Assembly (NCBI GenBank): GCA_002863155.1
Contig: PKED01000146.1
Coordinates: forward strand, 27,993 to 91,992
Source: Sphingomonadaceae bacterium
GTDB lineage: Bacteria > Pseudomonadota > Alphaproteobacteria > Sphingomonadales > Sphingomonadaceae
Direction of reading: 5' to 3'
DNA length: 64,000 nucleotides
Shown here: positions 60,601-64,000 of the stretch, in pieces
Layout: each line of letters starts with the position of its first letter
Position numbering within the stretch: the stretch's first letter is position 1
Notes under the pieces: generated by a model
Told to the model about the DNA's origin: nothing
What the model saw: the letters and a program-made list of their open reading frames with translations, nothing else
The model's database searches: none
Translations under genes and position numbers: made by a program

Positions 60601-63087
60601 ATGACCGATTATCCGCTGATTGCCCCGCGTCCGCCGCGACTGAGCGCGCATCCGCACGACCTTGCCCGGCTGGAAGCGTCGGGCATCTACAGCAATAGCG
60701 GGCCTGAGGTCCGCGCGTTCGAGGCCGAGGCGACCGATCGCCTGTTTGGCGGCCAGGGCGCGACGATCACGGTTGCCAATGCAACGCTCGGGCTGCTGCT
60801 CGCGATCCGGCAGGCGGCGGGGTGGTTGCCCGAACCGGGATCGCTGGCGATCGTGCCCAGCTTTACCTTCGCGGCGACCGCGCAGGCGGCGCTCTGGGCC
60901 GGGCTTACCCCGTTGATCTGCGATATCGATCCCGACGACTGGTCCGCCTGCGCCCGTGCCGAGGAGCGCCTGCTGAGCCAATATGGCAGCCGGGTGTCGG
61001 TGATCGTGCCCTATGCGACTTTCGGCAACGCGATCGACCTCGATCGCTATGAATGGCTTCAGAGGCGCCACAATGTCGGCGTGGTGATCGATGCGGCTGC
61101 ATCGCTTGGCACGCTCGGCGCCGACGGCCTCGGCTTCGGCGCAAAGGCGCCCTTTGCCGTCGTGTTCTCGATGCATGCGACCAAGACATTCGCGGTCGCG
61201 GAGGGTGGCCTCGTCCATTCGGGCAATGTCGCGCTCATCGAAACGATCCGGTCGATGGCCAATTTCGGTTTCCAGGGCAGCCGCAGCGCGGCGATGCCGG
61301 GAATCAATGCCAAGCTGCCCGAGCTGATCGGCCTTGCCGCGCGGCTCAAGCTCGGCGAATTCGAATCGATCGCCGCCAACCGTGCCGCGATCGAGGGAGC
61401 GTATCGCGCCGAGCTGGGCGATTTCGACCTCCAGCGGCCCTATGGCACCCGCCGGGCAATGCAGTTCATGCCGGTGCTGCTGCCCGCAGCGATTGCCCGC
61501 CACCGTGCCGACATCCTCGCCGCGCTGGCTGAAAAGGGCGTGCAGGCCGGGCAATATTTCAGCCCGCATCTGGCCGAGCAGCCCTTTTTCAAGGCAAGTG
61601 CGATCATCGACCCCACCCCGGTCGCGGATCGGGTCGCGGCCCGCATCATATCATTGCCGATCACCGACGCGATGACGCCAGACGATGCAAAGGAGATTGC
61701 ACGGCGGTTCAGGGCAGTGTGCACCGCTGGCAGCCGACCGACGACGCTGCCGGCGCGCGCGCGGCGCTTTTCGGTCGCGCGCGTCGTGATCGTCGGCGCC
61801 GGGCCGGCGGGCACTGCCGTCCTTACCGCTGCGTCGAAGCACGGCCTGCTGCCGCAATTCTCGGACGGGCTGGTGATGGTCGATCGCGACGACGTGATCG
61901 GGCGCGGACGGCTCGGGCGCTACGCGATCACCTCGGACAGCACGGCCACCACGTTTCTCACCGCGGTCAAGGACAATCCGCATCCCGAGATCGCGATGCT
62001 GGAGGAACATCCCGCCGCCCGCACCGTCCGCCGCTTCACCGATGCGATGGGGGTGCCGCTAGTCGATGCCGGACCGCTGGTGCAGGCGACCGGCGAGCGG
62101 CTGGGCGCGCTTGTCGCCAGCTATGGCGGCGTCGTGATGACCGGACACGACGTGCTGGGGGCCGAGCGGACCGGCGACGGTCTGTGGCGTGTGCGGATGC
62201 GCGTGCAGGCAAGCGGGCGCGAGTTCGACCAGCTGAGCGAATCGATCGTCATTGCAACCGGCGGGCATCAGCCGCTCGACCGCATCGTCAGGCAGCGCGT
62301 CGCCGGCGCCCCGCTGCTCGCGCTGGCCGGCGATCGGCTGATGCAGTCGGACGACGTGCTGGGCCTGGGCGGGATGGCGCGTGTCGCCGACCTCCTCAGC
62401 ACGCGGCGCGCACCCCGCGTCGCGGTGATCGGCGGGTCGACCAGCGCGGTCGCGACGATCGCGCTGCTGCTGAAGAGCGTGCCCGCGCTGCCGTTCGGGG
62501 CAGGGGCGGTGACGCTGCTGCACCGCCGGCCGCTGCGCCCCTTCTACCCCTCGGTCGCGGCGGCCCATGCCGACGGCTTCACCGATTTCGGGCCGGACGA
62601 TGTCTGCCCGGTATCGGGCTTCGTCTATCGCCTTGCCGGGTTCCGGCTCGAAGCGCGCGAACTGGTGCTGCGCATGCTCGGCATCGGTGGTCGCGTGCCG
62701 GAGCCGCGCGTCCGGCTCCACCGGATCAGCGGTGACGACGATGCCGAGGCGCAGACGATCCTGAAAGACGTCGACCTGGTGATTGCCGCGCTCGGCTATC
62801 GCCCGGTGGCGCTGCCGCTCAGCGATATTGGCGGCCGGCCGATCGCGCTGGCTGCCGAGCGCGGCGCGCCGATGGTCGACCCGCATTGCCGCGTGGTCGC
62901 CGCCGATGGTCAGCCGCTGCCCGGCGTCTATGGGATCGGCCTCGCCGCCGGTTTCGTGCCCTGGGGTCGGCTGGGCGGTGAGCCGAGTTTCCGGGGCCAG
63001 GCCAATGGTCTTTGGCAATGGCAGAACGATGTCGGGCTGATGATCGTCGAGCAGGTGCTTCAATCGGCGGCGCGGGCGGTCGCGTGA
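60601..63087 (+). CDS. Fusion protein: DegT/DnrJ/EryC1/StrS-type PLP aminotransferase + FAD/NAD(P)-binding (monooxygenase-like) domain
   Basis: N-terminal YSNSGPEVRAFEAEATDRLFG, FTFAATAQAALWAGLTPLICDIDPDDW, FSMHATKTFAVAEGGLV (PLP Lys); C-terminal VARVVIVGAGPAGTAVLTAA (FAD) and RVAVIGGSTSAVATIALLL (NAD(P)). One continuous ORF. Confidence 0.88.
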   Translation: MTDYPLIAPRPPRLSAHPHDLARLEASGIYSNSGPEVRAFEAEATDRLFGGQGATITVANATLGLLLAIRQAAGWLPEPGSLAIVPSFTFAATAQAALWAGLTPLICDIDPDDWSACARAEERLLSQYGSRVSVIVPYATFGNAIDLDRYEWLQRRHNVGVVIDAAASLGTLGADGLGFGAKAPFAVVFSMHATKTFAVAEGGLVHSGNVALIETIRSMANFGFQGSRSAAMPGINAKLPELIGLAARLKLGEFESIAANRAAIEGAYRAELGDFDLQRPYGTRRAMQFMPVLLPAAIARHRADILAALAEKGVQAGQYFSPHLAEQPFFKASAIIDPTPVADRVAARIISLPITDAMTPDDAKEIARRFRAVCTAGSRPTTLPARARRFSVARVVIVGAGPAGTAVLTAASKHGLLPQFSDGLVMVDRDDVIGRGRLGRYAITSDSTATTFLTAVKDNPHPEIAMLEEHPAARTVRRFTDAMGVPLVDAGPLVQATGERLGALVASYGGVVMTGHDVLGAERTGDGLWRVRMRVQASGREFDQLSESIVIATGGHQPLDRIVRQRVAGAPLLALAGDRLMQSDDVLGLGGMARVADLLSTRRAPRVAVIGGSTSAVATIALLLKSVPALPFGAGAVTLLHRRPLRPFYPSVAAAHADGFTDFGPDDVCPVSGFVYRLAGFRLEARELVLRMLGIGGRVPEPRVRLHRISGDDDAEAQTILKDVDLVIAALGYRPVALPLSDIGGRPIALAAERGAPMVDPHCRVVAADGQPLPGVYGIGLAAGFVPWGRLGGEPSFRGQANGLWQWQNDVGLMIVEQVLQSAARAVA

Positions 63088-63986
63088 CGCCCGCCGTCTC
63101 GGTCATCATGGCCGCCTATAACGGCGCGGGCCTGATCGGCGAGACGATTGCCAGCCTGCAGGCGCAGACGCTGACCGATTTCGAAGCGGTGATCGTCGAT
63201 GATTGTTCGACCGACACCACGCGCGACGTGCTGCGTGGGATCGGCGATTCGCGTTTCCGGGTGATCGAGGCAGCGGTCAATCAGGGGCCGGTGCGCACGC
63301 GCAACCGCGCCCTTGCCGAGGCGCGGGGCCGCCACATCGCCGCGCTCGATCAGGATGACCTGTGCCATCCCTCGCGGTTGGCCGAGCAGGTCGCCTGGCT
63401 CGACGCGCATCCCGATACCGTCCTTGTCGCCAGCGCGGCCGATGTGCTGGTCGGCGGCACGGTCCGTGCTTCGACGCTGCCGGCGATGACGACACCGATG
63501 CTCGTCGAATGGATGCTGTGGATTTCGAACCCGCTGGTCTGGTCCTCGGTGATGATCCGCGGCGATGCGGCGCGCGCGCTTGATCCCTTCACCCGCCCCG
63601 AATTGCTCTATGCCGAGGATTTCGATCTCTATCACCGGCTCGGCGCACTTGGCCGGATAGCGCGGATCGACCGGCCGCTGCTGCGCTATCGCAGCCATGA
63701 AGGCGGTGCGTCGCAACGCTTCACCGATACGATGCTGGCGAGCGCGACGCGCGTTCTGGCGGCACGCTATGTGCCGGTGTTCGGCGATGGCGCGACCGCG
63801 CGAGCCCGGCTGGTGGTATCGCATGTGATGCAGCGTGCGCCCGTCCCCGATCGGGCGACGCTCGTTCTGCTCGGCCAGACCCTGTTTCCAGAGGATTCGG
63901 TGGAGAGTTCCACGGGGCCTGAAAACACATTATTGGGGGACGTTTTAAGTCCCTCAACTTGCAGTAGTCCCTGCAAACCTCAGTAG
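63084..63986 (+). CDS. Glycosyltransferase family 2, possibly 3'-disrupted
   Basis: VSVIMAAYNGAGLIGETIASLQAQTLTDFEAVIVDDCSTDTTRDVL...NRALAEARGRHIAALDQDD; GTG start overlaps the fusion stop. Last 30 or so residues have unlike composition. Confidence 0.85.
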   Translation: MTPAVSVIMAAYNGAGLIGETIASLQAQTLTDFEAVIVDDCSTDTTRDVLRGIGDSRFRVIEAAVNQGPVRTRNRALAEARGRHIAALDQDDLCHPSRLAEQVAWLDAHPDTVLVASAADVLVGGTVRASTLPAMTTPMLVEWMLWISNPLVWSSVMIRGDAARALDPFTRPELLYAEDFDLYHRLGALGRIARIDRPLLRYRSHEGGASQRFTDTMLASATRVLAARYVPVFGDGATARARLVVSHVMQRAPVPDRATLVLLGQTLFPEDSVESSTGPENTLLGDVLSPSTCSSPCKPQ

Positions 63987-64000
63987 ACATAGGTGATTCT

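Follow-up and report, generated by a model that had tools for sequence, protein, structure and literature searches.

A fused sugar-type aminotransferase and group-B-like flavoprotein in Sphingomonadaceae: a candidate route to N-oxidised sugars of surface glycans

The fusion locus

The window, by which we mean the whole stretch of 64,000 nucleotides of Sphingomonadaceae DNA analysed here, ends with two genes on the forward strand, a long aminotransferase-flavoprotein fusion and a GT2 glycosyltransferase (Table 1). The 828-residue product of the first carries both a DegT aminotransferase and a two-Rossmann flavoprotein, each of them complete. In Pfam searches with the fusion protein, DegT_DnrJ_EryC1 covers residues 21-370 (E 5e-59) and passes the PF01041 gathering cut-off (200.8 bits vs 19.8), and Pyr_redox_2 covers residues 394-655 (E 1e-8, or 1e-9 when the flavoprotein half is searched alone, above the gathering cut-off). 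Each half is thereby matched by its own domain, and the first-pass annotation, which had described a single-ORF fusion with an intact catalytic lysine and a translationally coupled GT2 downstream, is borne out on all three counts by the comparisons below.

Table 1. Features of the fusion gene and the adjoining glycosyltransferase gene, in window coordinates
Feature	Position	Strand	Remarks
Aminotransferase-flavoprotein fusion	60601..63087	+	One frame, 828 aa; ATG at 60601, TGA at 63085-63087
Aminotransferase half, about residues 1-375	60601..61725	+	PF01041
Catalytic lysine K195 (codon AAG), PLP Schiff base, context HATKTF	61183..61185	+	Invariant in 98 aligned aminotransferases
Linker, about residues 376-392	61726..61776	+	Gap separating the two conserved domains
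Flavoprotein half, group-B N-hydroxylating-monooxygenase-like fold	61774..63084	+	Pyr_redox_2, AF2 model, Foldseek
FAD Rossmann motif GAGPAG	61795..61812	+	G399, G401 and P402 conserved at 95% or more over 108 loci
NADP(H) Rossmann motif GGSTSA	62431..62448	+	G611, S615 and A616 conserved at 95% or more over 108 loci
GY of the (A/T)xGY motif	62794..62799	+	G732 and Y733 conserved at 95% or more over 108 loci
GT2 glycosyltransferase gene	63084..63986	+	Pfam Glycos_transf_2; GTG start; GTGA overlap with the fusion stop

In Sphingomonas the fusion and GT2 make up an operon of just these two genes, and the glycosyltransferase start overlaps the fusion stop by exactly 4 nt in 53 of the 69 fused loci examined, as it does in the window. 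The contig, and hence the window, stops just past the GT2 gene. Because the C-terminus of this protein diverges from its relatives over the final ~90 bases of the contig, its last ~50 residues are unreliable. The 121-base tail at the window end (63880-64000) occurs once in this assembly, and an insertion sequence at this position is unsupported.

Authenticity of the fusion

The same full-length, one-frame fusion is present in 87 of 151 congeneric genomes (Sphingomonas, judging by the relatives that bear names) at 52-73% identity. Because so many congeners share this form and the cofactor motifs are conserved, the fusion is not an artefact of assembly or frameshifting; congeneric and wider relatives also rule it out as an oddity of one genome. 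The view that a faulty assembly or a frameshift has run two genes together, or that the flavoprotein half has decayed, might draw on the split or broken versions seen in a few congeners (G068, L128), but against the 87 intact fusions it is barely conceivable. Viral contigs were also searched and contained no relatives, leaving a viral origin unsupported.

Several variants of the locus were encountered. In Sphingomonas xinjiangensis (L128:8799-11311), a frameshift within the aminotransferase half breaks the fusion into ORFs of 264 and 595 residues. Another Sphingomonas genome (G119, L077:8110-10487) retains GT2 and the flavoprotein half but no aminotransferase half; a DegT gene of 33% identity is found at another site in that genome, near rmlB. 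In a split Sphingomonadaceae pair (G555/L075), separate aminotransferase and flavoprotein genes overlap by 4 nt.

The aminotransferase half

The PLP-site aspartate D164, like K195, is invariant in the 98 aligned aminotransferases. The nearest solved structures are 3ju7 and then 2po3, which we take to be CalS13, the C4-aminotransferase of calicheamicin biosynthesis; 2c7t and 1b9h are also among the PDB relatives. The best NCBIfam models are those of the C4 sugar aminotransferases DesI, PseC and ArnB. This half therefore resembles DesI, VioA and ArnB-type C4-aminotransferases (PF01041) in its fold, its catalytic lysine and its best family scores, but it differs from them in being fused to a flavoprotein and in scoring far below the equivalog cut-offs (152 bits vs 650 for DesI, 134 vs 423.5 for PseC). 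No NCBIfam equivalog cut-off was reached for any of the named enzymes DesI, PseC, ArnB and WecE.

The flavoprotein half

An AF2 model of the flavoprotein half (pLDDT 90.7, pTM 0.88) was matched by Foldseek most closely to the PDB structures of SidA, EtcB, DfoA and PvdA, with E-values down to 4e-14 and a TM score of ~0.54 against the best matches, a likeness at the level of the superfamily. A 30-member profile searched against the PDB likewise found EtcB/MbtG best (2e-7), and the next matches included DfoA and SidA alongside thioredoxin reductases; phmmer with the flavoprotein alone against the same database returned nothing useful. With SidA, PvdA, IucD, DfoA and EtcB this half shares the two-Rossmann fold, the FAD and NADPH motifs and the GY motif. 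The last can be compared with the ATGY motif of group B N-hydroxylases; it reads AALGY in the window protein and ATGY in the distant members L029 and L030. Unlike members of PF13434, it falls below the gathering cut-off of that family (11.5 bits vs 21.3), which only the distant relative L029 passed, and it is linked to a sugar-type aminotransferase and a glycosyltransferase. Because of the sub-threshold score and the TM of ~0.54, the protein is N-hydroxylating-monooxygenase-like in fold but not a proven member of that family. The two-Rossmann, group-B-like flavoprotein of the first-pass annotation stands, with cofactor motifs conserved across 108 loci, while its further likeness to N-hydroxylating monooxygenases holds for fold and profile and stops short of PF13434.

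Since the group B superfamily oxygenates several kinds of atom and the sequence cannot assign substrate residues, the flavoprotein could instead oxygenate a carbon, a sulphur or another atom of the aminated molecule. This seems unlikely, as the closest folds are specifically N-hydroxylases and the Baeyer-Villiger fingerprint FxGxxxHxxx(W/Y/F) occurs in 0 of 108 ORFs.

Plasmids of Rahnella and Erwinia carry a distant relative of the flavoprotein. In Rahnella (L030:9962-13088) it adjoins a fusion of an NTP-transferase with an aminotransferase and a CDP-alcohol phosphatidyltransferase, a setting reminiscent of phosphonate biosynthesis, and the neighbouring aminotransferase fusion fits a logic of amination followed by oxidation.

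Distribution and repeated fusion

A flavoprotein alignment, run against 84,980 species genomes, brought up 213 relatives, 80 of which were retained. The pair occurs in several architectures. In Sphingomonadaceae the aminotransferase precedes the flavoprotein in a single chain, whereas the reverse fusion was found as a 900-residue protein on plasmid pACIX904 of Granulicella tundricola, in a Rhodospirillales MAG (L091) and in another proteobacterial MAG (L098). Elsewhere the two are separate genes side by side. The aminotransferase gene leads in Komagataeibacter, Acetobacter, Nguyenibacter, Methylobacterium and Lichenifustis, the flavoprotein gene in Granulicella paludicola, Acidisoma and others.

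When the flavoproteins are placed in a tree, Sphingomonadaceae form one supported group with Kushneria nested inside. The three reverse fusions sit at separate positions, and the supported branches force at least three changes. Judged from gene order and this tree, Sphingomonas, acetic acid bacteria and acidobacteria all preserve the pairing of aminotransferase and flavoprotein, and fusion has occurred independently in both orders. Independent fusions of opposite order are strong evidence that both activities serve one reaction sequence.

Glycan gene context

Outside Sphingomonas, the partner gene encodes a GT2, a member of a Pfam-less GT-A-like family, an acyltransferase-3 protein or a methyltransferase. 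The Pfam-less family was found at 18 loci outside Sphingomonas (alignment A5; for example L103:7552-8406), often adjoining the pair, and its structural model (pLDDT 84.7) resembles GT-A glycosyltransferases. Members at L069, L111 and L112 have a C-terminal extension, which in L069 is an F5/8 type C domain.

Polysaccharide genes lie close to the pair in Granulicella; GumK, rmlC and rmlD do so in Komagataeibacter, and the flippase Wzx, Wzc and glycosyltransferases in Burkholderiales-like genomes. This recurring company of glycosyltransferases and polysaccharide genes lends support to the sugar or glycan product that had been proposed from the window alone. The Komagataeibacter pair adjoins acetan-type genes, but we do not assign it to the acetan pathway, as acetan is not known to contain an amino sugar.

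The most telling locus is that of Kushneria sinocarnis (L137), where an unfused flavoprotein, 62% identical to the corresponding half of the window protein, stands beside a predicted dTDP-4-amino-sugar pathway. Around it are two GT2 genes, an rmlB that passes its cut-off, a damaged rmlA and the gene of a DesI-like aminotransferase. In this assembly rmlA (L137:14053-14922) is interrupted and lacks its middle part, through either decay or an assembly fault.

Supply of the keto sugar

If the aminotransferase half acts on an activated keto sugar, one would look for a sugar dehydratase in the same genomes. Among the 151 congeneric genomes, 75 of the 87 that carry the fusion have rmlB, as do 46 of the 64 that do not, a weak association (Fisher p 0.04, uncorrected for kinship). 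PF02719 dehydratases were found in none of the 12 carriers that lack rmlB, and gmd in only 2, so that 10 of the 12 lack gmd as well. In one genome rated 100% complete (G034), a broad SDR search gave only GalE and HpnA as candidates. Because several complete fusion genomes have none of the 4,6-dehydratases sought, an NDP-4-keto-6-deoxy sugar cannot be the general substrate, unless these genomes form it with an enzyme not recognised as a dehydratase. The case for dTDP-4-keto-6-deoxyglucose as an obligatory substrate is weakened by the rmlB-less fusion genomes, and neither UDP-GlcNAc 4,6-dehydratase nor GDP-mannose dehydratase can be the general ketone source, as both are missing from most of these genomes.

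The same gap bears on two other readings of the pair. The flavoprotein might act first, making a ketone, for example from a sugar or cyclitol alcohol, which the aminotransferase would then convert into an ordinary amino sugar. Fused enzymes often act in consecutive steps, and a ketone made in this way would suit the several complete fusion genomes that have no recognisable NDP-sugar 4,6-dehydratase as supplier. We consider this order unlikely: the fold and both dinucleotide sites match NADPH/O2 monooxygenases rather than sugar dehydrogenases, and Kushneria retains the flavoprotein although its rmlB would supply the ketone.

Alternatively, the substrate of the aminotransferase may be no nucleotide sugar at all but a cyclitol, a lipid or a hopanoid head group, for example, and the glycosyltransferase would decorate the N-oxidised product. 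DegT enzymes do aminate inososes and other ketones, as the relatives 2c7t and 1b9h illustrate, and the fusion genomes without a dehydratase would be accommodated. Since the best family matches are NDP-sugar C4-aminotransferases, and since glycan gene contexts recur and Kushneria has rmlA and rmlB beside the flavoprotein, this substrate class appears quite unlikely.

A proposed aminate-then-oxidise enzyme

The reading we prefer is that of a two-step enzyme which aminates a keto sugar, oxidises the new nitrogen and passes the product to the coupled glycosyltransferase; we put its chances at about even. The DegT half would move an amino group onto the ketone of an activated sugar. With FAD, NADPH and O2, the flavoprotein half would then oxidise this nitrogen to a hydroxylamine or perhaps beyond, to the oxime, nitroso or nitro level. 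Attachment of the product to an exopolysaccharide or another glycoconjugate would fall to the co-translated GT2, or to another glycosyltransferase, one of GT-A type, in the acetic acid bacteria and acidobacteria. Conserved pairing together with independent fusion in both orders suggests that an unusual N-oxidised sugar is probably made.

Such chemistry would have counterparts among known systems. In nitro-sugar biosynthesis, the group D flavin nitrososynthases ORF36, KijD3 and DnmZ N-oxidise dTDP amino sugars; these enzymes have an acyl-CoA-dehydrogenase fold, are encoded by separate genes and need a flavin reductase. They are similar to the fusion in flavin-dependent N-oxidation as proposed here, but unrelated to its two-Rossmann fold. 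The pair CalS13 and CalE10 offers the same succession of a DegT C4 sugar aminotransferase and an N-oxidising enzyme. The CalS13 product is N-oxidised by CalE10 (Johnson and Thorson 2008, cited in PMC4851618). CalE10 is a cytochrome P450 with a gene of its own, and its pathway makes an actinomycete antibiotic, whereas here a fused flavoprotein is found in Proteobacteria and Acidobacteria, beside polysaccharide genes. The known substrates of group B N-hydroxylating monooxygenases are mostly amino acids and diamines, and FrbG, an N-hydroxylating enzyme of FR-900098 biosynthesis, acts on a CMP-linked amine (PMC7347517). By this description FrbG is a precedent for a group-B-like N-hydroxylase working on a nucleotide-linked amine, differing in its phosphonate substrate and CMP handle.

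Taken more broadly, the loci could represent a widespread and undescribed module in which a sugar aminotransferase, joined independently in both orders to a flavin N-oxygenase of group B, makes with it N-oxidised sugars for bacterial exopolysaccharides or other surface glycans, a proposal that we hold tentatively and at somewhat under an even chance. Searches of open-licence papers gave no description of the aminotransferase-flavoprotein module, which is weak evidence of novelty.

Implications

Most N-oxidised sugars known so far come from a small number of actinomycete antibiotics. If the proposal is correct, they would be common, though overlooked until now, in the surface glycans of Sphingomonas, of cellulose-making acetic acid bacteria and of acidobacteria, where they would provide a reactive N-O handle. 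The reach of group B N-hydroxylases would then extend to sugars, and the fusion would be a ready-made biocatalyst for both steps. Since the two genes have been fused repeatedly and in both orders, the functional coupling on which this picture builds is unusually well supported.
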